This document shows, piece by piece, positions 18,775-37,452 of a stretch of 64,000 nt of DNA. Position numbers and translations under genes: made by a program. Source of the DNA: Glaciecola sp. (GTDB lineage Bacteria > Pseudomonadota > Gammaproteobacteria > Enterobacterales > Alteromonadaceae). The notes beneath the pieces were generated by a model that worked only from the letters and a program-made list of their open reading frames with translations, had not been told where the DNA came from and did no database searches. Location: the NCBI GenBank assembly GCA_029246415.1, contig JAQWNF010000003.1:1-64000 (forward strand), given 5' to 3'. Numbering within the stretch: the first letter of the stretch is position 1; every line of letters starts with the position of its first letter.

Positions 18775-21015
18775 TTACTGGTAGTAAAATGCACCAGTCC
18801 AATCATAAATCGTGTCAGCAATTTTTAGGCTATGTTTACTTGAAGCTGCCGCATCTTGATTAGCAAGAATAAATAACTGTGTATTGCCTGCTAAATCAGT
18901 AATTTGGATCGCTGTATACTGTGTATCATCGTGCACAATTGCAAGGTTAGCAATATTACTCGATGAGTTTAATGACGCTTCAGTAACAGGACTATAGCTG
19001 CCATGAGGCTCAATTACAGTTGCAAATGTGGTATCAGCAGTGTCATTACGACGGATCATGAAAGCCGCTTCACGACGAATATTAAACTCAGGATCCTTTG
19101 CCCCCATGCGGGTAAACAACAATTCATCGCTAGTATTCGTTGCAGCAGTCAACGTAAAGAATTTGCCTTCAGTTAACCAAGATAATTTAGTGTTATTTGT
19201 TTTAGGTTGACCTTGACCTTCTAAGTATAAATGTTGATAACCGTTTTTCGTACCAAGCGGAGCTAGCGTGTTGGGTGATGCATAGTCAAAATTGGTGTCA
19301 ATGACTTGGCCTAAGAAATAATAAGGTAGGTCATAATCTTGCTTAGCATTCGTGTCCACTTTCATGATGTCGAGTAAGAATGCTTTTTCAAAATTCTCGT
19401 CTTTGATCATGACCATAGTACGATGCATTTTGGTCCCTGGGTATGCATTGGTTTCAGTCGCACTCACTACTTGCACTTCTGGGCGCGAGTCATCATAGAC
19501 ATGTAATTCGGAATGATGCTGACTGCCTACCGCATATTTACCCTGAAAATGCATTTCTTGATTAAGTGATAAAGTATTGTGAGCAATAGTGGTTTTTGCC
19601 CACGTTGTGTTTTCTTTTAGATAGTTACCACCGCCTTTTTGACCAATATTAACAAAACGCGATAATCCGTAATCTTGCAATACTTCAGCGCCTTTTGCAT
19701 ATAATGAAAAAGATAACTTGTCGTAATGACCGTGGCTTAAGCCTTGGGCTGCATATTTAAATACATTGGTAAGTTCTTCGTTACCATAACGTAATACAGC
19801 AACGCCACCCTCATCACCGTTAGCACCATCAGTAAGATTAACCGATGTTTTGGCAAAAGGTTGGGCCTTGTTATCACGCACACCAATAGCGACGGCTAAA
19901 CCCGCTTGGTCGAGTAGCACTTCATTTTGAGTTTGTGCAATGCTTAGTAGCTGTGGATCTTGATTACCATAGTGATATGCAACGTTAACCGCAGTAACTA
20001 ATGACGGCGTAAAATAAGACATGCCTTTTTGACCGTCATTAAGTGGGAAGAACTCTCCATCAGCATCGGTCAAATTCAATAACGCATCTACACCTTTGAG
20101 CAGTACATTGTCTTTATGCTGCATCACGCCTAATTCTGGCTTAGCATTTTCCATTCCCAATGCAAAGATTAAGAACGGGTACATAGCATAACGTTGGTAA
20201 TACGGACCTTCGGTATAGTAACCATCAGGTGAAAAGGGCTCTTCGAGATTAGCTAAAAAGCCGCGACGTTGGCCTTCTGTTTTAATTGTACCGCCGTCAT
20301 TATCAACGCCACCAACTTCTAAGCCATCATCTTCGATGCCATATAATGCGCGTTGGATCAGTTCTTTATCATCCATTACTAGACCAATCATACCTACTGC
20401 GGCATTACCCCAAGTACTATGATTGTGTACGCGGTTGAAAAACGCAGGGTTTTCTAACGAGATAAAATCTGCGAATGGACGAAATAAATTATTCTCTAAA
20501 ACAGAGCGTTCAGAATCAGACAAAAAATTATAGATAGTGTCGTAGGCTTGGCTCATATACACCAGCCAGTTACTGTCATTTAGGCACTGCCAAAATAACT
20601 TACCTCTTGAATAGGAACGTTCTTGGGGATGTAGGGGCAAGTTTTTGTACATTGCTTCGTATTGAAACAACATATCACGCACATAAACGGCATATTTATC
20701 GTCTTGTAAAATTTGATATAACACACCAGCTTGTTGGGCAATGATAAAATTTTGTTTATGACGGTAATGGGTATAACCACCAGAGAAATCTTTAGGGATT
20801 GGCGTATCAATGCCCGCAGCAATTTCTGCATCAACCACTTGTTTAACCTTGACTAAACTAGCGTCAAACAATGGGACTTTACCAAGGTTTTTGCGGATTT
20901 GCTCCACTCCGTCTTGCGTCAAAATAAGATTTGGATGTTCTTTGGCTGACAGCGATGGCACGTTGATTAATATCAACACCATCAGTAATAAACTTTTCAT
21001 CATTCTTATTGGCAT
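18775..21015 (-). CDS. Oligoalginate lyase, PL17 family (heparinase II/III-like C-terminal domain), secreted
   Basis: Signal peptide; PKDFSGGYTHYRHKQNF, LFSPDGYYTEGPYYQRYAMYPF (read as LEEPFSPDGYYTEGPYYQRYAMYPF), NTTWAKTTIAHNTLSLN, GLSHGHYDKLSFSLYA resemble Alg17C-type enzymes. Confidence 0.88.
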   Translation of the reverse strand: MPIRMMKSLLLMVLILINVPSLSAKEHPNLILTQDGVEQIRKNLGKVPLFDASLVKVKQVVDAEIAAGIDTPIPKDFSGGYTHYRHKQNFIIAQQAGVLYQILQDDKYAVYVRDMLFQYEAMYKNLPLHPQERSYSRGKLFWQCLNDSNWLVYMSQAYDTIYNFLSDSERSVLENNLFRPFADFISLENPAFFNRVHNHSTWGNAAVGMIGLVMDDKELIQRALYGIEDDGLEVGGVDNDGGTIKTEGQRRGFLANLEEPFSPDGYYTEGPYYQRYAMYPFLIFALGMENAKPELGVMQHKDNVLLKGVDALLNLTDADGEFFPLNDGQKGMSYFTPSLVTAVNVAYHYGNQDPQLLSIAQTQNEVLLDQAGLAVAIGVRDNKAQPFAKTSVNLTDGANGDEGGVAVLRYGNEELTNVFKYAAQGLSHGHYDKLSFSLYAKGAEVLQDYGLSRFVNIGQKGGGNYLKENTTWAKTTIAHNTLSLNQEMHFQGKYAVGSQHHSELHVYDDSRPEVQVVSATETNAYPGTKMHRTMVMIKDENFEKAFLLDIMKVDTNAKQDYDLPYYFLGQVIDTNFDYASPNTLAPLGTKNGYQHLYLEGQGQPKTNNTKLSWLTEGKFFTLTAATNTSDELLFTRMGAKDPEFNIRREAAFMIRRNDTADTTFATVIEPHGSYSPVTEASLNSSSNIANLAIVHDDTQYTAIQITDLAGNTQLFILANQDAAASSKHSLKIADTIYDWTGAFYYQ

Positions 21016-23543: not shown

Positions 23544-26500
23544 TTAGAACGTGTAGCTAGCACCAAAAGTGATACGACGGTCAGCTAGACCTTGGAAACA
23601 AAGGATTGCGCCTTCGTTAACACAAGACTGAGTTACGCCTTCTTTTGTTAGGTTAACTGCTTCAACACCAACGTTAAGCTGTTCGTTTACATCATAGCTG
23701 AAGCTAGCATTAAGCTGACCACGGTCATGAGTATAAACTGGGAAACCTAAAGTAGAGTTACGTGATGCACCACCAGCTGTATCATCTGTACGGAACGCTT
23801 CACGCCATGTGTAACGAACACGAGCACTGATACCATACTTTTCATAGTATGCAGTTACGTTATAAGCATTTTCAGAGAAGTCTAATAGACCTTGAACCGC
23901 TGATACTTTAACAAAGTCTGCATCGTCATAAATACCATTGATAGCATTGAAGATATCAGTACCACGACCCGCAGATTGGTTAACAACTGAACCACCTTTG
24001 TATTCTTGGATAGTGTAGTTAGCCATGAAACCAAAACCAGATGCCCAGCCAAGGTCTTTTTCAAACGCTGACAAGTCATACTGTACAGCCATCTCAATAC
24101 CCGTTTGAGTAGTGGTTGCTGGATCATTAACTTGTGTGTCTAAATCAGCACAGGCACCAGTTACACCTAGAGGAGCACGGAAATCATCACCTTGAGCAGC
24201 AGGGTTATAAATACCACCAGCGGCACAAGTTGTGTCATTCGTCGCTACGAAACCATTGGCATCTGTAGGCGCTGATTCTAGCGTTGATACAAACAAGTTA
24301 CCGATTTCTTTATCAAAATAACCGATACTTACAACAGCTGCTTCTGCAAAATACCACTCAGCAGATAAATCTAACGTAGTGATTTCTTGTGGCTCTAAAC
24401 CAGGGTTACCAACAGAAACTGATTGGTTGATGTTCGCTGGGAATGATACAGATGTATTCAAATCAGAGAAATTAGGACGACGGATATCTTGTCCATAACC
24501 TAAACGTAGTACAACATCATCATGCGGTGTGTAAACGACATTTAACTTAGGTAATGTAAACGAGTAATCACCAGTTACAGTAGTAAGTGTATTAGTACCA
24601 TCAATATTTGTGTTACCTGTAGAATCTACAGTTGTTTTAATATGACGTACACCAAAGTTACCAACAACGTTTTCAAACTCAAAGTTTGCTTGCGCATATA
24701 ACGCTTGAGTCTCTTCTTCGATGTTGAAGAATGCAGACGCTGATGGAGAAAGATTTAATAAATCTGGTGATGGATCATGTGCAATTAACGCAGCTTCTAA
24801 CGTATCAATTACTTGATCTGGATTACTAAATGCCATATCAGGATTGATGATGATGAAGTTACGTAATGCTAGTTCGCGACCATCCGCATCGCCAAAGTTG
24901 CTTGGACCAGCTACTAACAGGTCAGAGAACAATGAACCGCTTGGACTGTCTTTCAACTTGCTGAAACCACCAATACGGTCAGTGATTTGGTTGTAAGTAC
25001 TTTCACGCTTGCTTACACGGAAACCAAAATCAACAGATGTTACTGGTGAATCTTCTAAGAAGTATGTGAAATCGGCACGGATAGCATCTAATGAGTTATT
25101 AGTTTCGTTTGCGCCTACGTCAACTTGATCAAGAACTACGTTTGCTGGATCCATTAGCTGAGGGATCGTCGGAGCAAACGGTGAGGCAAAGTTGATACCA
25201 AATGTTAATGCACCGCCTGTAAGATCATAAATGAACGGAACAGCGTTGTCATTACTTGTGCTATCAGTTGGGTTGCCATCAGCATCAAGACCATCTAAAG
25301 GTGCATTAGGGTTGATGAAGTTTAACGTTGTGCTTAGGTTTGGATTAGTTGTATCTGAACTCGCTGAAGAGATTTCAACGCTAGCAAACAAGTTATCACC
25401 CTGCCACTCACCACCAAGACGGAAAAGAGATGTGTCAGTTAAACGTGCACCTGTATCAGAACTGAAACGTAGGTTTGGATCATCGTCATCCTTCGCTAGG
25501 TCTGGTTCGATTGTACCGCGAACTGCTGCTTGGATACTACCAAGGTTAACACCGTCTAAAGAACCGTAATTTACTGTTTCAAACTGAGTTGGTAAGTTTT
25601 GATTAAGCACTGAACTTACACCAGAACCTTGTACACGAGTACTGTCTTGACGACGCTCTTGGTCAGTTAAAACAACATCTAAGAAAAACTTAGTGTTATC
25701 AGTTGGGGCAAACTCAAACGTAGTTGAGATGTTAGTTGTTTCATATTCGAAGTTTTCATATTCTTGGTTTAAGAATTGAATACCTAGGAAATCAAAATCT
25801 TGACATACTGGACGAGCAGATACGTCTTCAGTGTTACCACTTCGTACTACAACTGCATCACAGTTTTCTACTAGACTACCGTCGCGGTCAACACGTGGAC
25901 GGAAAGAAGAAGCTTCTTGTTGTGTAACACTACCACTGAAAACAAAACCGAATTTACCAGAATCTGTATCCCAGTTATCACCAAATGCAGCAGACACACG
26001 TGGCATAATACCATCAGTGGTTAAGCTGCTGTCTTCGCCTTGAACACGTACGTTGATTAAACGGTCGTCAAGTTCTAAAGGACGGATTGTACGAAGGTTA
26101 ACAGTACCACCGACAGAACCTTCGATAGTTTTGGCTTCTGACGCTTTAGTTACTTCAACACCGGCAATGATCGATGCAGATACATCTTCAAAGCTAATAC
26201 CGCCACGGCCAGTACCAGCACCAACAGTTTGAACTCCGTTAATTAGTACGTTGTTCGAGTTAGAACCACGAATTTGAACACCCGTACCAACACCAGCTGT
26301 ACGTGTGATTTGAATACCTGTAATGTTTTCTAATACTTCAGCTAAGTTTTGATCAGGTAGTTTACCGATATCTTCAGCTTCAATAATTTCTACTAGGTTA
26401 GTAGATGAACGTTTTTCAGCAAGTGCGTTAGTTAGTGAACTACGAATGCCTGATACTTCGATGACTTCAACATCAGCAGCTGCATCTTGTGCAAGTACTG

Positions 26501-26567
26501 GAGCAGCCATATTTAGTGCTGAAGCAGATAATACTGCTAAAGTAATCTTAGAAAGTTTGTGACTCAT
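23544..26567 (-). CDS. TonB-dependent receptor
   Basis: Signal peptide, plug (EDIGKLPDQNLAEVLENITGIQITR), terminal ITFGASYTF. Confidence 0.93.
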   Translation of the reverse strand: MSHKLSKITLAVLSASALNMAAPVLAQDAAADVEVIEVSGIRSSLTNALAEKRSSTNLVEIIEAEDIGKLPDQNLAEVLENITGIQITRTAGVGTGVQIRGSNSNNVLINGVQTVGAGTGRGGISFEDVSASIIAGVEVTKASEAKTIEGSVGGTVNLRTIRPLELDDRLINVRVQGEDSSLTTDGIMPRVSAAFGDNWDTDSGKFGFVFSGSVTQQEASSFRPRVDRDGSLVENCDAVVVRSGNTEDVSARPVCQDFDFLGIQFLNQEYENFEYETTNISTTFEFAPTDNTKFFLDVVLTDQERRQDSTRVQGSGVSSVLNQNLPTQFETVNYGSLDGVNLGSIQAAVRGTIEPDLAKDDDDPNLRFSSDTGARLTDTSLFRLGGEWQGDNLFASVEISSASSDTTNPNLSTTLNFINPNAPLDGLDADGNPTDSTSNDNAVPFIYDLTGGALTFGINFASPFAPTIPQLMDPANVVLDQVDVGANETNNSLDAIRADFTYFLEDSPVTSVDFGFRVSKRESTYNQITDRIGGFSKLKDSPSGSLFSDLLVAGPSNFGDADGRELALRNFIIINPDMAFSNPDQVIDTLEAALIAHDPSPDLLNLSPSASAFFNIEEETQALYAQANFEFENVVGNFGVRHIKTTVDSTGNTNIDGTNTLTTVTGDYSFTLPKLNVVYTPHDDVVLRLGYGQDIRRPNFSDLNTSVSFPANINQSVSVGNPGLEPQEITTLDLSAEWYFAEAAVVSIGYFDKEIGNLFVSTLESAPTDANGFVATNDTTCAAGGIYNPAAQGDDFRAPLGVTGACADLDTQVNDPATTTQTGIEMAVQYDLSAFEKDLGWASGFGFMANYTIQEYKGGSVVNQSAGRGTDIFNAINGIYDDADFVKVSAVQGLLDFSENAYNVTAYYEKYGISARVRYTWREAFRTDDTAGGASRNSTLGFPVYTHDRGQLNASFSYDVNEQLNVGVEAVNLTKEGVTQSCVNEGAILCFQGLADRRITFGASYTF

Positions 26568-26979
26568 GTTGTGTTCTCCTGTGTGATTGCTGGCACTTAA
26601 AGTGTCATGACAACCGCATCATTTGTTAACGTGTGTTGTATGTAACTCATTGAAGTAATTAATACGTGTGTTTGTTTACATAAACATGCAATCGTATGCA
26701 ACGAGTTAACGCTATCTTTACAATTAATCGCTCAAAGGTCAACCATTTTGGTAAAATAATTGTGAATATTATGTGCTATGATGGTCTTACAATGAGCAGG
26801 GGGTGGTGACTGTAATTGTGTTTTCATCACTAAAAAAAAGTAGGGCTAAAGTTTAATGGACATTAATTTTAGTGGGTTTGACTTGCTTTTTTACTGCATG
26901 TGGCGCAACTGTTTATAGTCATTGTTGTATTGTTTTAAAATAATAAAAAATAATAACAAATAAGATTTTTATTTTTTTA

Positions 26980-26993
26980 TTGGTCGACCAATT
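26980..26993. promoter_or_regulatory. Palindrome ATTGGTCGACCAAT, candidate GntR (UxuR/ExuR-like) operator for the uxuA operon
   Basis: Perfect 14-bp palindrome upstream of uxuA; TTGGTnnACCAA core. Confidence 0.6.
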
Positions 26994-27096: not shown

Positions 27097-28341
27097 ATGC
27101 GCGAATCTTGGAGATGGTTTGGTCCTAACGACCCAGTAACAATCGCTGATATAAGACAAACTGGTGCGACCGATATTGTTAGTGCCCTGCATAATATACC
27201 GACAGGTCAAGCTTGGCCGTTAGCTGCGATTCAAGAGCATCAGGCTTTAATCGAAGATTGCGCTGCCGATTTATCGCCATTGACTTGGAGTGTCGTAGAA
27301 AGTATCCCGGTACATGAAGATATTAAATTAGGTCGCCCAGGTCACCAGCAGTACATAGATAGCTGGATCACTTCAATGGAAAATCTAGCCGAGTGTGGCA
27401 TTAAAACTATTTGTTATAATTTTATGCCTGTTATTGATTGGACGCGAACCGACCTTAATTACAAGCTTCCTAATGGTGCTTATGCGTTACGCTTTGATCA
27501 GCCTAAGTTTGCTGCGTTTGATTTGTTTATTCTGCAACGTGAAAATGCTCAAGCAGAATATAGTGCTGAAGAAATTACAGAAGCCCAAGCGGTATTTGAT
27601 GCAATGGATGATGCCGAACGTACACAGCTGACCAATAATATCATTGCTGGTTTACCAGGCAAAATGACGGATGCCTATGGATTAGATGATTTTCGTCAAA
27701 TGCTAGGCAACTATATAGATATGGATAGTGCCGGTTTACGCAGTAACTTGTTTGCTTTTTTATCTCAAGTGTTACCGCGTGCAGAAGCGTTAGGGATTAA
27801 ATTAGCCATTCACCCTGATGATCCACCTAGAGATATGCTTGGTCTACCTCGGATCATTTGTACTGCAGCGGATTTGGATATTTTATTTGCTGCGTTACCT
27901 AGCCCATCCAACGGTATTACTTTGTGTGTAGGTACTTATAGTAGTCGTCCAGATAACAATTTACCCGAAATGGCAAAGCAATTTGGTCCGCGTATTCATT
28001 TTTCGCATTTACGTGGTGTCAGTCGCGATCCCCAAGAGCAACGTTCCTTTTATGAAGCGAGTCATTTAGATAGCGACATTGATATGATCCAAGTTGTACA
28101 AGAATTATTGTTAGAAGAACAGCGTCGCCGCGTGGATCTCTCTGACGAACAAGGCATCGACGAAATCTTTATTCGTCCAGATCATGGTCATCAAATGATG
28201 GATGATATTGGTAAGACTGTTAACCCTGGCTACTCTGGCATCGGTCGGATGAAAGGCTTGGCTGAAGTACGTGGTGTGATCCGTGCTCTTTCTGCGCAGA
28301 TATCTGCTTCGTCCCAAACGAACAAAGGGAATCCAGCATGA
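27097..28341 (+). CDS. uxuA: D-mannonate dehydratase UxuA
   Basis: MRESWRWFGPNDPVTIADIRQTGATDIVSALHNIPTG...CYNFMPVIDWTRTDL. Confidence 0.95.
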   Translation: MRESWRWFGPNDPVTIADIRQTGATDIVSALHNIPTGQAWPLAAIQEHQALIEDCAADLSPLTWSVVESIPVHEDIKLGRPGHQQYIDSWITSMENLAECGIKTICYNFMPVIDWTRTDLNYKLPNGAYALRFDQPKFAAFDLFILQRENAQAEYSAEEITEAQAVFDAMDDAERTQLTNNIIAGLPGKMTDAYGLDDFRQMLGNYIDMDSAGLRSNLFAFLSQVLPRAEALGIKLAIHPDDPPRDMLGLPRIICTAADLDILFAALPSPSNGITLCVGTYSSRPDNNLPEMAKQFGPRIHFSHLRGVSRDPQEQRSFYEASHLDSDIDMIQVVQELLLEEQRRRVDLSDEQGIDEIFIRPDHGHQMMDDIGKTVNPGYSGIGRMKGLAEVRGVIRALSAQISASSQTNKGNPA

Positions 28342-29420
28342 GTCAAATAATCAAGTTCGGTCCCAACCGTGTGTGGCGCACCTATCAAGGTGGTAAGCAG
28401 TTAGACATTATTGAAGGCAAAGAAGATCCGCAAGACTCTAGCTTTCCAGAAGATTGGATTGGCTCAACGGTTGCGGCTAAAAATATAGGCCGAGAGCACA
28501 TTTCAGAAGGGTTAGCATTGGTCACCGATACGAGTGGGCAAACCGTTCCTTTTAGAGATGTATTACAACAAAATCAATCTTATTACTTAGGTGAAACCGA
28601 TGCTGGTCCAAGTGGTATGGATGATATTCCGTTAGTGAAATATCTCGATAGTGCAACGCGATTACATTTTCAAGCACATCCAACACGTGAGTTTGCACAA
28701 GCACGTTTGGATTCACCACGTGGTAAGACTGAAGCATATGTGATTTTAGAAATTCGTGACGATGTAACCGAGCCCTATATTTATGCAGGTTTTCAGCGTT
28801 CACCTAGTCGTGCGGATTTAAAGGAATGGATCGAAACGCAAAACATCGATGCGATTGAACAGTGCTTTGATAAAATTCCGGTCAAACCTGGCGATGTGTT
28901 CTTACTTCCCGGTGGACGTCCTCATGCATTAGGTGAGGGGATTTTAATGCTAGAAATCATGGAGCCATCTGATCTAGCGGTACGATTTGAATTTGAACGT
29001 TGTGGTTACGTGATCCCTGAGAAAGCCCGTTTTATGGATCGCGGCATTGAAACCGCATTAGATGTGTTTAATTTTGACCCTGTCCCACCGACTCAGATTG
29101 ATTCTGAATTTCGCTGTATACCTACTATTATAAATCAGGATAGTAGCGCGAACACATTAGAGCAACTTATCGGTCCTGATAAAACCTCGTGTTTTACGGT
29201 TAAGCGTGCAAACGTTCAAGGTGAGTATATACGTTGTGAGGACGAGTTTTTCTACGGTGTTGTTACGGCCGGATCAGGCAAGATGCAAATTGGCGATGAA
29301 ACTATTGTGTTGCAACAATGGGAGAGATTTTTCTGTCCTGCAGGGGTAACCGATTTTACCTATGAATCGACTTCGGGAATGACAATCTTAGAATGTTATC
29401 CAGGTAGTGAATTAAAATAA
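28338..29420 (+). CDS. Class I mannose-6-phosphate isomerase-like cupin enzyme
   Basis: LHFQAHPTREFAQ (QxH), GKTEAY, PGDVFLLPGGRPHALGEGILMLEIMEPSD; ATGA overlap with uxuA. Confidence 0.85.
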   Translation: MSQIIKFGPNRVWRTYQGGKQLDIIEGKEDPQDSSFPEDWIGSTVAAKNIGREHISEGLALVTDTSGQTVPFRDVLQQNQSYYLGETDAGPSGMDDIPLVKYLDSATRLHFQAHPTREFAQARLDSPRGKTEAYVILEIRDDVTEPYIYAGFQRSPSRADLKEWIETQNIDAIEQCFDKIPVKPGDVFLLPGGRPHALGEGILMLEIMEPSDLAVRFEFERCGYVIPEKARFMDRGIETALDVFNFDPVPPTQIDSEFRCIPTIINQDSSANTLEQLIGPDKTSCFTVKRANVQGEYIRCEDEFFYGVVTAGSGKMQIGDETIVLQQWERFFCPAGVTDFTYESTSGMTILECYPGSELK

Positions 29421-29465: not shown

Positions 29466-30941
29466 ATGCAACGTCTTAATCAGGCTAGTTTAGCAACACT
29501 TCCGGCGAATATTACAGCGCCTAAATATGCCCCGGTCACGGTTTCATCGGGAATATTACACTTTGGCGTAGGTAACTTTCACCGTGCTCATCAAGCCATG
29601 TACTGTGATGAGCTGCTAAATAAAGGTGAATTAAAGTGGGGCATTACAGGTGTGTCTCTGCGTTCGCCGGATATGCGTGATCATTTGGCAGCGCAAGATT
29701 ATTTGTACACACAAGCGACTTTAGGTGAGCAAACTCAGTATAAAGTCGTTGGCGCGTTGCAACATATATTAGTGGCACCAGAAGATCCGCAAGCGGTGCT
29801 CAGTGAGGTCGCAAACAGTAATATTCAATTAATCACAATGACGATTACCGAAAAAGGCTATGATTTGGCTAATGGCGAACTCAATGGGACAGCATCAGGG
29901 GTCGCGCATGATCTTCTGGATTTGAGCCAACCCAAAACGATTTATGGATATATAGCCGCGGGACTTATTCAACGTTGTACAAAACAAGGCTCGAAATTAA
30001 CCGTATTGTGCTGTGACAATATGCATGCCGGTGGTGAGGTTGTAAAAGCTGGCGTGATGGTACTGTTAAATCAACATAGTCCTGAAACCATCGCTTGGGT
30101 TGATGAGAATGTTGCCTTTGCGTCTTCTATGGTTGACCGCGTAACACCTGCCACCAGTGAGCAGCTCAAGCACGATGTTACGCAAGCATTAGGCTTTGTC
30201 GATGCGGCTCCTGTGGCTGCTGAGCCATTTACACAATGGATTATTGAAGATAATTTTGCCGGTGAGCGTCCGCCCTTTGATCGTGTAGGTGCATTATTCG
30301 TTGATGATATTACTCCGTTTGAAAAAGTGAAATTGCGTTTTTTAAATGCAAGTCATTCTATGCTAGCGGCAATGGGGTATTTAGCGGGTGATCAATTTAT
30401 TCATGAAGCTTTACGCCGTAGTGTACTAGCGCAATTTGCTGAGCAAGCCTTAAAACTCAATATATTACCTGTAACTCATGTGCCACAAGGTATGTCAGGG
30501 GTTACTTATATAGATGAAGTGTTAGCGCGTTTTCGCAATCACCATTTACCGTATGCGGTATTGCAAGTGGGTACCGATAGTTCACAAAAAATTCAACAAC
30601 GTTGGTTTCCTGCTACTGATGATGCATTGCGTGTTGGAAGAGCGAGTGCTTATTTGGCGTTTGCCGTGGCTGCGTGGGCGAGTTTTATACGTAAAGCCCT
30701 CGAAAATAATGACCTCAATGATCCATTGTCTGAAGCATTGGCTCAATCTAGTGAAATAACCAATACAGATACTACGGATTTTGCAACACGCATGCACGGT
30801 TACTTACGTCTAGCGGGTGCTGAAAGTTTTGATTTTTATAGCAATCGAGCGTTCATGGATCGGGTGACTCAATGTCATATCAGTATAGAAGGTTTAGGTG
30901 TTGAACAAGCGCTTAGCGTTGATTTAGCCCTTAGCAAATAA
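29466..30941 (+). CDS. uxuB: Mannitol dehydrogenase family; fructuronate reductase UxuB-like
   Basis: LHFGVGNFHRAHQAMYCDELL, TITEKGYDL, KLRFLNASHSMLAAMGYLAG; adjacent to uxuA. Confidence 0.88.
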   Translation: MQRLNQASLATLPANITAPKYAPVTVSSGILHFGVGNFHRAHQAMYCDELLNKGELKWGITGVSLRSPDMRDHLAAQDYLYTQATLGEQTQYKVVGALQHILVAPEDPQAVLSEVANSNIQLITMTITEKGYDLANGELNGTASGVAHDLLDLSQPKTIYGYIAAGLIQRCTKQGSKLTVLCCDNMHAGGEVVKAGVMVLLNQHSPETIAWVDENVAFASSMVDRVTPATSEQLKHDVTQALGFVDAAPVAAEPFTQWIIEDNFAGERPPFDRVGALFVDDITPFEKVKLRFLNASHSMLAAMGYLAGDQFIHEALRRSVLAQFAEQALKLNILPVTHVPQGMSGVTYIDEVLARFRNHHLPYAVLQVGTDSSQKIQQRWFPATDDALRVGRASAYLAFAVAAWASFIRKALENNDLNDPLSEALAQSSEITNTDTTDFATRMHGYLRLAGAESFDFYSNRAFMDRVTQCHISIEGLGVEQALSVDLALSK

Positions 30942-30957
30942 CAATAAAAAATAACTT

Positions 30958-32250
30958 TTGAGGTCGTCTAACATGGAACAAGTAGCAGCATCATCATTGA
31001 AACAAACATTTGCCAAATGGTTAGCGTTATTTTTGCCAGGTATTTTTTTACTTGGTTTTAATATTGGTACCGGCAGTGTCACTGCGATGGCTAAAGCAGG
31101 TGCAGATTACGGTATGACGTTGTTATGGACGATTGTCGCCTCGTGCTTATGTACTTTTTTCATGATCAACCTGTATGGGCGTTATACGTTAGTGACGGGG
31201 GAAACCGCACTACAAGCATTCCGCAAGCATATTCATCCAAGCGTCGGCATCTTTTTCTTAATTGCGTTAACGACTGGCGTGTGCGGCAGTGTGATGGGTG
31301 TAATGGGAATAGTCGCTGATATTTGTTATGAGTGGTCAAAATCGGCTGTAGAAGGGGGCATTGCGCCGATTTATTTTGCGGCGTTTTTTGTTGCTTTGGT
31401 GTATTACATTTTTTGGAATGGTAAAACAGAGTTTTTTGAACGCAGTTTAGCGGTGGTTGTTGCGATCATGTCTGCATGTTTCTTGGTGAATTTTTTCATT
31501 ATGATGCCGCCGCCTGTGGAAATAATCAAAGGTCTTGTTCCAAGTATCCCTGAAGTTTCTACCAGCACAGGTAAAGGGCCGTTTTTAGTTATTGCGTCAA
31601 TGATCGGTACGACGGTGTTTTCTGGATTATTCATTATCCGTACAACATTGGTAAAAGAAGCCGGTTGGACGTTAGCGGATTATGCTAAGCAACGCAATGA
31701 TGCGATATTTTCGGTGTGTTTGATGTTTATCATCAGCGCGTCGATCATGGCTGCTGCTGCCGGAACCTTACATGTTGAAGGGATTAGTTTGACCAATGCG
31801 TCACAGATGATTGGGATTTTAGAGCCGTTAGCGGGCTCATTGGCGACGGCTATTTTCGCTTTTGGTTTGGTTGCTGCAGGGGTGTCTTCACAGTTTCCAA
31901 ACGTACTGATGCTGCCTTGGTTATTGTGTGATTATAATGACACACAACGTGATATGACCTTAACTAAATACCGTATTATTGTGTTTTTAATCTCCTTGTT
32001 GGGGCTAGTTGTACCTATATTTGATGCACGTCCAGTACTGGTCATGATTATCTCGCAAGCATTCAATGCGGTGATTTTACCGATTACCGTCGCCTGTATT
32101 TTTTATCTAGGTAATCGCAAAGACTTGATGAAGTCTCATACAAACACATGGGTCGCTAATAGCATTTTAGCTGCTATCTTAGTGTTCTCGATCTTTACTT
32201 CTTTCATCGGTGTGAAGGGCGTGTGGCAGTTGATAACAGCGACTTTATAA
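30958..32250 (+). CDS. Nramp-fold (SLC11-like) transporter lacking DPGN and MPH motifs
   Basis: LPGIFLLGFNIGTGSVTAMAKAGADYGMTLLW aligns to Nramp TM1; IGTTVFSGLFIIRTTLVKEAGW aligns to TM6. Confidence 0.8.
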   Translation: MRSSNMEQVAASSLKQTFAKWLALFLPGIFLLGFNIGTGSVTAMAKAGADYGMTLLWTIVASCLCTFFMINLYGRYTLVTGETALQAFRKHIHPSVGIFFLIALTTGVCGSVMGVMGIVADICYEWSKSAVEGGIAPIYFAAFFVALVYYIFWNGKTEFFERSLAVVVAIMSACFLVNFFIMMPPPVEIIKGLVPSIPEVSTSTGKGPFLVIASMIGTTVFSGLFIIRTTLVKEAGWTLADYAKQRNDAIFSVCLMFIISASIMAAAAGTLHVEGISLTNASQMIGILEPLAGSLATAIFAFGLVAAGVSSQFPNVLMLPWLLCDYNDTQRDMTLTKYRIIVFLISLLGLVVPIFDARPVLVMIISQAFNAVILPITVACIFYLGNRKDLMKSHTNTWVANSILAAILVFSIFTSFIGVKGVWQLITATL

Positions 32251-32284: not shown

Positions 32285-32414
32285 ATTTATCAAAAATAGC
32301 CAACCAAATTGGTTGACAACGGTTGGGTTAATTGTTTTAATAATGTTAAATAAATTGTATAGTTTGTGTTTGTGCTTAACGTTTATTTAATTATTATGTT
32401 TTCATAGTGTCTTG

Positions 32415-32440
32415 GCTCCTTTTTTAAGGAGCTTTTTTTT
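32415..32440 (+). terminator. Rho-independent terminator of the uxuA operon
   Basis: GCTCCTT TTTT AAGGAGC TTTTTTTT. Confidence 0.85.
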
Positions 32441-32445
32441 GTCTG

Positions 32446-33294
32446 TTATTTTGTGATCGCATTGACTGTTTTTGTAATATCGATGTGCTGAGTTGATTCG
32501 ATAAACCCAATTGAAAAACGCTGAGGGGTATTGAGGTATTTGTTCTTTTCACTGCGTCCAAAACCTAGGACCGTCATGTAGGGGCGGCTAACATAATTAT
32601 CTGGATGTTGGTCATCTTCATGGTGCAATACATAGAGCATACGCGAACTGTTTGTATCGCCAAAGGCAAACCATTCTGGTGCAGGTAAATCGCCTAAAAA
32701 GGATTCATTAATTGGGTGTGACTTTGAATCGATGGATGCATACCAGAAATCACTTTCATCCATATTACCATTGGGCACGCCTTCAAATTGCACCCAGTAG
32801 TTATATCCAGCACTGACTTGGGTCATAGTAAAATCGAGTCTATCGCGATAAAAGTCATATTGACCGATCCACTTACCATTTGCTGAAGTAACATCAATTC
32901 GAATATGTTGCGGGGTATCAATGACAATATTTGTAGCAGCTAGGTCGGTTTTGGCATTCATTGCATGAAAATAATTGCCATCTTGTCTATGAACGGCATT
33001 AGGAAAACCGCGATATTCACCTTTCCAACCTGAGCCGGGGGTATTATTAAAACCTATCCAATCCACGCCATCAGCATCGAGCATACTCGATAAACCGCCA
33101 CCGGTTTTTTCTAAATAAAATGTCGCATTATCTATCTCAACAATAAACGCAGGTAAATTGCCAGCAGACTCATCGAAACCATCTGTTAGTTGTATACTTC
33201 TTTGAGAACTACAAGAGACTAGACCTAAACTTAAGCAAATCGCTGTGGCTAGTGGCGCTAGTCTGTTAAATGAAGGTTTAGGTGTAAATATCAT
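32446..33294 (-). CDS. Lipoprotein of unknown function in carbohydrate operon
   Basis: Lipobox LVSC at the end of a signal sequence; FYLEKTGGGLSSMLDADGVDWIGF...GEYRGFPN. Confidence 0.65.
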   Translation of the reverse strand: MIFTPKPSFNRLAPLATAICLSLGLVSCSSQRSIQLTDGFDESAGNLPAFIVEIDNATFYLEKTGGGLSSMLDADGVDWIGFNNTPGSGWKGEYRGFPNAVHRQDGNYFHAMNAKTDLAATNIVIDTPQHIRIDVTSANGKWIGQYDFYRDRLDFTMTQVSAGYNYWVQFEGVPNGNMDESDFWYASIDSKSHPINESFLGDLPAPEWFAFGDTNSSRMLYVLHHEDDQHPDNYVSRPYMTVLGFGRSEKNKYLNTPQRFSIGFIESTQHIDITKTVNAITK

Positions 33295-33297
33295 GAT

Positions 33298-35049
33298 TTA
33301 TATAGTCCTTTGGCGAGCACTGCGCTTTAATAATAAACCTATAGTGAGGATAGTCATAGCACAGCCAACAAATACGAGCCTGCCCCATAATGGATTTGGG
33401 ATCAAACACATCAATAATACACCGACGCCCATTATCAGCACCATAGCGCCGAGCTTATCCCGCTGATGACGGTCATAATCGCCTTGTTCAGCATCGGCTA
33501 TAAACGGTGTTTCGACATCGTTAAAGAAGGCTTCACGTTCTACTCGATATTCATCTGTGGCTTCGTTATAAAACAATGTTGTCGAACAGAAAAATCCTGC
33601 TGTAATGACTAAATGCGCTGCAATAGTGATCATTAAGTTGAGATCGATATATTCACGGCGGGTTAATGCTTGATCCAATCCGATGATGTCGGCAAAGACA
33701 TTTGGCGTAAATACATTCATCACAAACCAAGACACAAACAACCCTAATGCAACTGTTACCCATGGTGCCCATTTAGGAGTTTTTTGGATAAACAAGCCAA
33801 AGATCAATGGAATTAAAAGTGGTACTTGGATCATTGTTGACACGCTCATCATCAATTCAAACAAGCTTAACTGTGTGAGTGACTTAAAGAACAACGCCAC
33901 GACGATGACCAAAATACCACTGATAAAACTAATTAAGCGACTGACCTTAAGTAAATGCTTATCATCCACGTATTGTTTGCGTTGGCTTAACCAAGGCTGA
34001 TAGATACTGCGGACAAAAATACCTGCATTTTTGTTGAGTGCCGAATCCATTGAAGACATAGAGGCGGCAAATAAGCCAGCGAGTAATAAGCCTACAGTAC
34101 CTATTGGCATTGCGTTTCGGGTAAATACCAAATACACGGCATCAGCAGCTTTGTTGCCTAACTCTGGATAAGCTGCTGCTGCATCTGGATATAAAATGGC
34201 TGCCGCCCAAGGCGGGATAAACCAAATAATACTGCCTGCCGCCATTAATATCATAGCTAGTAGTGCAGCTTTGCGGGCATTGTCAGAATCTTTGGCATTT
34301 AAAAATCGGAATGAATCATGGATGTTCATGATTGTTATCAGTTGTTTAGCTAAAAAAAACACAAATGTACCAACTAATAATACACCATAGTTCATATCTG
34401 GACCCATCATAAAATCAGAAGGGAACTGAGTGACTAGGGCGACGGGGCCGCCAACTTTTATTAGAGCAACTATGGCACAGGCAATCGAAATGACTGCCAC
34501 AATCAAAGTTTGTACAAAGTCTGATGCGACCACGCCCCATGCACCAGATAACACTGATACGAACAATACCGCGAGACCTGTCGCGATAATTGTGACACTG
34601 ATATCTGCATCGAATACTACGCTGGTAAAGACTCCTAATGCATTAAGCCACACGCCTGCGTTGATAAAACTAAAGACAATTAATGCCCAAGCAAAGAATG
34701 TTTCATTGCTGCGACCAAAGCGGCGTTTAATACCTTCTGTTGGCGTATCGACACGCATTTGCCTAAAACGAGCGGAGAAATATGCCCAGCCACAAAAATA
34801 TGCAAAGGTATTGGCAAAAAAGACTAAACTAATCGAAAAGCCATCAGTGAAAGCTTTACCAGCAGCTCCAGTAAACGTCCAAGCTGAAAATTGTGCCATA
34901 AACGCAGTTGAACCAACCATCCACCACAACATCCGACCGCCGCCACGAAAATAGTCACTGGTCGAGTTTTTCGCCATTTTAGAAAAGGCAAATCCGATTC
35001 CAAGGATCAGTAAAAAGTATCCTACAATGACTATGTATTCATAAAACAT
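33298..35049 (-). CDS. Sodium:solute symporter (SSS) family transporter
   Basis: FRGGGRMLWWMVGSTAFMAQFSAWTFTGAAGKAF; about 13 hydrophobic segments. Confidence 0.9.
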   Translation of the reverse strand: MFYEYIVIVGYFLLILGIGFAFSKMAKNSTSDYFRGGGRMLWWMVGSTAFMAQFSAWTFTGAAGKAFTDGFSISLVFFANTFAYFCGWAYFSARFRQMRVDTPTEGIKRRFGRSNETFFAWALIVFSFINAGVWLNALGVFTSVVFDADISVTIIATGLAVLFVSVLSGAWGVVASDFVQTLIVAVISIACAIVALIKVGGPVALVTQFPSDFMMGPDMNYGVLLVGTFVFFLAKQLITIMNIHDSFRFLNAKDSDNARKAALLAMILMAAGSIIWFIPPWAAAILYPDAAAAYPELGNKAADAVYLVFTRNAMPIGTVGLLLAGLFAASMSSMDSALNKNAGIFVRSIYQPWLSQRKQYVDDKHLLKVSRLISFISGILVIVVALFFKSLTQLSLFELMMSVSTMIQVPLLIPLIFGLFIQKTPKWAPWVTVALGLFVSWFVMNVFTPNVFADIIGLDQALTRREYIDLNLMITIAAHLVITAGFFCSTTLFYNEATDEYRVEREAFFNDVETPFIADAEQGDYDRHQRDKLGAMVLIMGVGVLLMCLIPNPLWGRLVFVGCAMTILTIGLLLKRSARQRTI

Positions 35050-36234: not shown

Positions 36235-37452
36235 TTACCAGTTCCATAAAGTGCCGTCTTCTAATCGACTGACAGGTAAATAAGAGCGTTTGTAAGGATA
36301 TTGTTGTGCTGCCGTTTCATCAAAGTCTACGCCTAATCCAGGAGCTTCACTCACATATGCCATGCCGTCACTCACGGTGACAGTAGAGGTAAATATTTGT
36401 TTTACTTGTTCATTACCCAATCCAACAAACTCTTGAATACCAAAATTAGGCGCCCAAGTATTGAGGTGCATATGAGCGGCAAAACAAATCGGTGACAGAT
36501 CGGGCGCACCATGGGGCGCGGTTTTAACATTATAAATATTGGCAAAATCACCTATTCTGCGTAATGCGGTAATGCCACCTGCATGGGTCGCTGCGACACG
36601 AATGTAATCAATCAGTTGATTTTGGATCAGGTCTTTACAATCCCAGATGGTGTTATACGTTTCGCCAATCGCTAATGGGGTCGTCGTGTGTTGGCGAATG
36701 ATCTTGTAGCTATCTTGATTTTCGGCGATGGATGCATCTTCTAAAAATAGTAAATCATAGGGTTCGAGCAATTTACCTAAACGTGCTGATTCGATGGGAG
36801 TTAAGCGACTATGCACATCATGTAATAAGTGGATGTCGTTACCAAAGCGCTCGCGTGCTTGCTTAAACAGCTCAACGACAAGATTAAAATATTTCTTAGT
36901 TGACCATTGTTCTTCTGGTGGAAGCGGGCGGTTACCTTGTAATTCGTAGTAGTCTTTTTTATCGCCTAACACGCCATACGTGACAGGTAGACCTGGGATG
37001 GCAGATTGCAACCGGATTGCTTTATAGCCTTGATCTATAAGCTGTGCGGCTTTATCTAACGTATCTGCAATATTTTCGCCACTAGCATGAGCATACAAGG
37101 TCACGCCTTGACGACTTTTACCACCCAGTAATTGGTAAACCGGTAAGCCAGCAGCTTTCCCTTTGATATCCCACAACGCCATATCGATTGCGGCGATGGC
37201 AGCGAGGTTAACCGCCCCTTTGCGCCAGTACACGCCTTTGTATAAATACTGCCAAATGTCTTCGATGGCATGCGCATCACGACCGATTAAACAAGGTGCG
37301 ACATGTTCTTCTAAATAGGTCACTACGGCCATTTCACGACCATTTAATGTGGCATCACCGATGCCATAAATACCCGCATCGGTATGGATTTTTACGGTGA
37401 CAAAGTTTCTGCCTGGGCTACAGACAAACACCTTAATGGCTGTGATTTTCAA
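36235..37452 (-). CDS. Enolase-superfamily D-mannonate dehydratase (ManD/RspA-like)
   Basis: [83 protein letters not shown]. Confidence 0.9.

Follow-up and report, generated by a model that had tools for sequence, protein, structure and literature searches.

The described systems closest to the transporter investigated here are the Slc11/MntH importers of manganese and iron (DraNramp, EcoDMT, and ScaDMT), the NRMT magnesium transporters (EleNRMT), and the YcsG/PxpT proteins. NRMTs retain the TM1 Asp (DxxG) (PMC8806188). YcsG and PxpT are needed for growth on 5-oxoproline (PMC13274462), and YcsG has also been claimed as the Mn2+ importer MntG, raising cellular Mn2+ (PMC10448178). In the sections of Cellier's work cited here, PF01566 is divided into Slc11, NRMT, and an outgroup without the hallmarks of Mn2+ and proton transport; this outgroup ("orphan") is treated there as a phylogenetic outgroup, without an assigned substrate or operon (PMC9606685, PMC10606218). 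According to Shin et al., the outgroup may connect transporters of non-metal substrates to the metal transporters (PMC4072509). Finally, the legend of figure S3 in a description of the alginolytic systems of Alteromonas sp. 76-1 lists a "Nramp, metal-ion transporter" in alginate clusters that also contain PL, KdgF, and DehR (PMC6431674). In the open-licence literature we found no uronate or sugar-acid assignment for any Nramp-family protein, and this legend was the only result that connected an Nramp to mannonate, to uxuA, or to an alginate lyase.

Here, we compared these systems with a locus from Glaciecola sp. (contig JAQWNF010000003.1, positions 1 to 64,000; this whole stretch of 64,000 nucleotides is referred to as the window). 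The locus encodes an Nramp-fold (PF01566) transporter of 425 aa (30973-32250, + strand), a proposed hexuronate importer. It shares the PF01566 domain and the fold with Slc11/MntH, with 6d91 as the best PDB match (probability 1.00, TM-score 0.79), and it retains Gln378 and Arg353 of DraNramp as Q362 and R334. In contrast to Slc11/MntH, however, it lacks the DPGN motif of TM1 and the MPH motif of TM6 with its metal-binding Met, carries Ile113 in place of the proton-path residue Asp131 and Arg223 in place of His237, and lies on a separate branch (100/100); the structural alignment with DraNramp gives 19-20% identity. EleNRMT likewise combines PF01566 and the fold (7qia, TM-score 0.77) with an altered metal site, but the transporter has Gly32 at the TM1 Asp, lacks the DxxG-TxxA/T signature, and falls outside of the NRMT clade (separate clades, 100/99 and 100/100). 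YcsG/PxpT is also a motif-less PF01566-related protein in a small-carboxylate catabolic operon, but it belongs to a different clade (IGPGFLTQ, beside pxpA) and is very distant in sequence. Compared by description, the transporter resembles the Slc11 outgroup in belonging to PF01566 without Mn2+ and proton-transport features; the Alteromonas protein differs in being named a metal-ion transporter. Since a motif-less PF01566 outgroup was already known, a missing motif by itself is less unexpected than an earlier note on this DNA had assumed. For an Nramp-fold clade that lacks the metal ligands and is bound to uronate catabolism, we found no description in the open-licence literature.

The transporter gene and its operon

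The open reading frame at 30958-32250 was confirmed, with its stop at 32250. The TTG at 30958 is the mechanical start only; the likelier start is the ATG at 30973, which is preceded by TGAGG. The PF01566 profile matches with 193 bits (curated cut-off 29.8) over 356 of its 357 positions, and the closest relatives of solved structure by sequence are Nramp proteins. Confidence in the AlphaFold2 model is medium (pLDDT 75.7), and pLDDT drops below 50 at residues 188-215, which include TM6a. The helices of the model are interrupted at residues 31-32 in TM1 and 214-216 in TM6, in keeping with a LeuT fold. A Foldseek search of the PDB gave only Nramp, NRMT, NRAT, or YcsG among its first 29 matches. 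The full-length alignment with MntH/Nramp proposed in the earlier note is thereby borne out. In NCBIfam, the protein scores 67.8 bits (cut-off 50) as a divalent metal transporter. The model behind this label, NF037982 ("equivalog" Nramp_1), clears its cut-off on several clades that lack the metal ligands, so that the annotation spreads the name of divalent metal transporter.

The gene is the last of four on the + strand, separated by small gaps. It is preceded by uxuA, encoding D-mannonate dehydratase (27097-28341; PF03786 383 bits, TIGR00695 484.9 bits), by a gene for a ManA-like isomerase related to class I PMI (28338-29420; TIGR00218 60 bits, below the cut-off of 116), a proposed mannuronate/fructuronate isomerase, and by a uxuB-like fructuronate reductase gene of the mannitol dehydrogenase family (29466-30941; PF01232/PF08125, NF011611 291 bits, below cut-off). 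Gene order, strand, and gaps agree with the fourth place in a uxuA / PMI-like / uxuB operon that had been assigned to it. UxaC was not found in the genome of the window, which makes the PMI-like enzyme the likely isomerase. The genome contains one second PF01566 gene, of the GPGT type.

Upstream of uxuA, the palindrome ATTGGTCGACCAAT (26979-26992) is a candidate operator; it lies in an island conserved upstream of uxuA in related loci (L033-L036) and presumably resembles the boxes of GntR/FCD uronate regulators. A terminator-like hairpin with a T run, a consensus match only, follows 3' of the operon (32414-32433, + strand). Divergent from the operon lies a gene for a TonB-dependent receptor (23544-26567, - strand; TIGR01782), and related receptors flank many related loci. 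Further away, a PL17-type alginate lyase is encoded at 18775-21015 (- strand), as judged by its Alginate_lyase and Hepar_II_III_C domains. On the other side, a convergent cluster comprises ManD, a D-mannonate dehydratase (36235-37452, - strand; NF043051 684.7 bits, above cut-off), an oxidoreductase, and a sodium:solute symporter (33298-35049, - strand; PF00474, TIGR00813). This symporter is the nearest other transporter, 1 kb away, so the assertion that there is no other transporter is right for the operon but not for its neighborhood. Between the two clusters, 32446-33294 encodes a 282-aa protein with a lipoprotein-like start and no Pfam or NCBIfam match, which also accompanies the symporter/oxidoreductase/ManD cluster in another locus (L051).

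Linkage to uronate genes among close relatives

A scan of one genome per species, covering 85,462 species, returned 53 loci with 68-94% identity from four phyla (Gamma- and Alphaproteobacteria, Flavobacteriia, Saprospiria, Planctomycetota, and Verrucomicrobiota); beyond Pseudomonadota, the sampling of the clade comes from these 53 scan loci. Core uronate genes lie within 3.5 kb of the transporter gene in 44 of the 53, whereas the 21 loci examined for other Nramps in the same family had none within 8 kb, and the 46 other PF01566 loci of Pseudomonadota had none within ~3.5 kb. The comparison of 44/53 with 0/21 gives a Fisher p of ~1e-11, a value that overstates the evidence because the loci are related and hence not independent. 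A recurrent link to uronate genes, which the earlier note had set as a test, was therefore observed. The notion that such neighbors are merely typical of these bacteria was rejected on the 0/21 result for same-family Nramps.

The linkage persists through changes of gene order and of phylum. Adjacent genes on the same strand are most often uxuA (18 loci), followed by those for the PMI-like protein (12), an AGE isomerase (8), and UxuB (7). In many gammaproteobacterial loci uxuA is directly upstream of the transporter gene. Among Bacteroidota, the PMI-like gene is directly downstream in 8 of 10 loci, and most loci have the isomerase beside the transporter with uxuA not nearby. In eight loci of Alphaproteobacteria, an AGE-family isomerase gene takes the downstream position in place of the PMI-like gene. 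In several loci, the gene belongs to a full alginate cluster that includes PL17, PL6, KdgF, SDR, and KDG kinase.

Counted over all loci, the isomerase beside the transporter is PMI-like in 20 and of the AGE family in 8, with both in none. The two unrelated families, represented by 28338-29420 of the window and L043:2505-3689, thus substitute for each other at this place, and both are candidates for a D-mannuronate isomerase.

Metal-site residues and the GTGS clade

The alignment with DraNramp places G32-T33-G34-S35 (31066-31077, + strand) on D56-P57-G58-N59 and F216-S217-G218 on M230-P231-H232; the altered TM6 stretch, which continues to Arg223 at the position of His237 in TM6b, is encoded at 31618-31641 (+ strand). 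The replacement of DPGN by GTGS and of MPH by FSG had been read exactly. More specifically, the metal ligands D56, N59, and M230 correspond to G32, S35, and F216, and the replacement at the first two positions is without exception in the alignment rows examined. GTGS is present in 26/26 sampled clade members and in every one of the 53 close relatives that covers the TM1 region, so that the motif loss reflects neither chance nor error. FSG is found in all covering relatives except one (L071, with SSS), and the TM6 sequence GTTVFSGLFIIRTTLV is almost identical letter by letter wherever it is covered. The position of Arg223 holds Arg in all 26 rows of the uronate clade, in a second GTGS sub-clade, in the E. 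coli member, and in the divergent member L170. The 53 close relatives, too, have this Arg wherever the position is covered.

The tree was rebuilt with the TM1 and TM6 motif columns removed. The 33 GTGS rows still form one branch (100/100), 26 of them making up the uronate clade, and the MntH, NRMT-like, GPGT, and GPGF rows each fall into clades of their own. As the same clades are recovered, the idea that the GTGS clade is a product of its own motifs was rejected. The earlier note had counted placement among demonstrated metal or Mg2+ transporters against its proposal; the GTGS rows stand apart from both MntH and EleNRMT-like rows (100/100). The transporter of the window shows all the features by which we propose to delimit the GTGS clade, namely the TM1 motif GTGS, an Arg that aligns with His237, and membership in the single clade.

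Divergent members of the branch differ in their surroundings. The second GTGS sub-clade (L156, L168, L169, L171, and L172; 37-39% identity) lies beside PL6, SDR, and LacI genes; L169 also has PL7, and its PL6/PL7 lyases occur without uxuA nearby. L170 (5408-10073) has a 41%-identical GTGS Nramp between an SDR gene and uxuA-like and UxaC genes in one operon, with an EDD-type dehydratase near it and no lyase found nearby. In E. coli, 547 of 5,426 complete genomes encode a GTGS-type Nramp, which carries the annotation of divalent metal transporter. In strain AGR5151 it is located between dnaB and qorA (L186:7019-8248), flanked by a CoA-transferase/enoyl-CoA hydratase pair, a FAD oxidoreductase, and a LacI regulator, and no uronate genes were found among its flanks. 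It is a tractable member that probably has another acid as its substrate, and given its place in a CoA-transferase cluster, part of the clade may fall outside the term sugar acid. One of the records, CP054241.1 (L181), is an 834-kb sequence labelled as an E. coli plasmid; since it contains the alr-dnaB-qorA-dusA region of the chromosome, it is possibly a chromosome fragment under a wrong label.

Other motif-less branches of PF01566 are linked to different genes. GPGF-type rows (L161-L165 and L210) adjoin pxpA (5-oxoprolinase), and some GPGT-type rows (L139, L173, L129, L184, and L192) adjoin pxpA or the hydantoinase/oxoprolinase genes hyuA/hyuB; these clades span bacteria and a haloarchaeon. 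None of the uronate-clade loci gave a pxpA match. In Bacillus badius, the order PxpA - NRAMP - hydro-lyase equals pxpA-ycsG-ycsI of B. subtilis, and this agreement links the GPGF clade with YcsG. When the PDB was searched by phmmer, a pxpA-linked relative used as query gave no match, so this link is founded on gene order and sequence type. Growth on 5-oxoproline depends on a PF01566 relative (PMC13274462), so the fold is apparently able to carry a carboxylate.

Substrate, proposed mechanism, and competing explanations

As far as sequence reaches, these results support the earlier interpretation that the protein has left metal transport and may carry a uronate or aldonate. We infer from gene linkage that it is an inner-membrane LeuT-fold importer on the non-metal side of PF01566, and that its cargo would be a manno-configured six-carbon sugar acid, with D-mannuronate as the first and D-mannonate as the second candidate (probability roughly 0.66). 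UxuA, the commonest neighbor, converts D-mannonate to KDG; together with an isomerase and UxuB, it makes up a complete route from D-mannuronate. Both the PMI-like and the AGE isomerase families act on manno-configured aldoses. The linkage to UxuA, together with the distribution of the isomerases, leads us to commit to a manno-configured hexuronate or hexonate. Glucuronate was rejected as a general substrate, as 13 of 16 other genomes lack UxaC in addition to that of the window.

The order of the two candidates is qualified by 12 genomes that carry the transporter and in which a genome-wide search limited to PMI-like genes, UxuB, and UxaC returned none of the three. The isomerase route is consequently not universal, and D-mannuronate is weakened relative to D-mannonate. 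These 12 genomes would need a direct mannuronate reductase, another candidate isomerase, or uptake of mannonate. Direct reduction of mannuronate to mannonate is known as EC 1.1.1.131, and owing to the symmetry of mannitol, reduction of D-mannuronate at C1 yields D-mannonate.

In the proposed pathway, the divergent TonB-dependent receptor would admit alginate fragments across the outer membrane, the PL17 lyase would cut them, and the saturated monomer would be imported by the Nramp-fold transporter. The co-transcribed isomerase would convert mannuronate to fructuronate, UxuB would reduce fructuronate to mannonate, and UxuA would dehydrate the latter to KDG. Within the transporter, the substrate hydroxyls may be held by the unwound GTGS segment of TM1, Thr213/Thr214, and Gln362, and the invariant Arg223 of TM6b may pair with the substrate carboxylate. 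Coupling to H+ or Na+ would be expected from the fold. The MFS transporters of full alginate clusters or the nearby sodium:solute symporter could import the uronate instead.

UxuA requires Fe2+ or Mn2+ and PMI requires Zn2+, so a transporter that still imports a divalent metal might be co-transcribed with these enzymes in order to supply their cofactor. The NCBIfam match, the retained Gln362, and the report of motif-less YcsG as a Mn2+ importer (PMC10448178) speak for such a role. The same NCBIfam label, however, is also given to clades adjoining oxoprolinase genes, and the ligands D56, N59, and M230 are replaced by Gly, Ser, and Phe, the first two invariably. Furthermore, the gene accompanies the isomerase where uxuA is not nearby (most Bacteroidota), PL6/PL7 lyases in L169, again with no uxuA nearby, and CoA enzymes in E. 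coli, and it lies outside of the MntH and NRMT clades. We therefore regard metal import as unlikely.

Import of DEH rather than of a saturated acid would fit the many loci in which KdgF, SDR, KDG kinase, PL17, and PL6 share the cluster, as well as the second GTGS sub-clade beside PL6/PL7 and an SDR. Yet the tightest neighbors, uxuA, uxuB, and the isomerases, act on saturated acids and not on DEH, the MFS transporter of full alginate clusters could serve DEH, and the L170 operon has UxaC with no lyase found nearby; DEH as the cargo appears quite unlikely. We consider it very improbable that the protein carries a carboxylate with another specificity or in another direction, for instance by exporting an overflow product, and stands outside uronate uptake despite the shared operon. 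LeuT-fold proteins are able to run in either direction and the E. coli member sits in a different pathway, but the uronate linkage across phyla, with rearranged gene order and different isomerases, points to a shared role.

Import of a manno-configured sugar acid remains our preferred reading, and a broader and more doubtful proposal extends it to the family. PF01566 beyond MntH and NRMT may largely consist of small-carboxylate importers, with hexuronates for GTGS, 5-oxoproline and similar compounds for IGPGF/IGPGT, and a CoA-activated acid for the E. coli GTGS member; Arg223 would then be the carboxylate anchor of the GTGS clade, and metal one specialization among others.

Nramp/SLC11 is regarded as a family of metal transporters, and in automated annotation such genes appear as divalent metal transporters. 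If the branch described here carries uronates, these names are wrong, a missing importer for saturated alginate monomers of marine bacteria would be found, and a part of the long-known Slc11 outgroup would gain a substrate. A comparison of GTGS and DPGN sites on one fold would reveal how a transporter can change over between metal ions and organic anions as its cargo.
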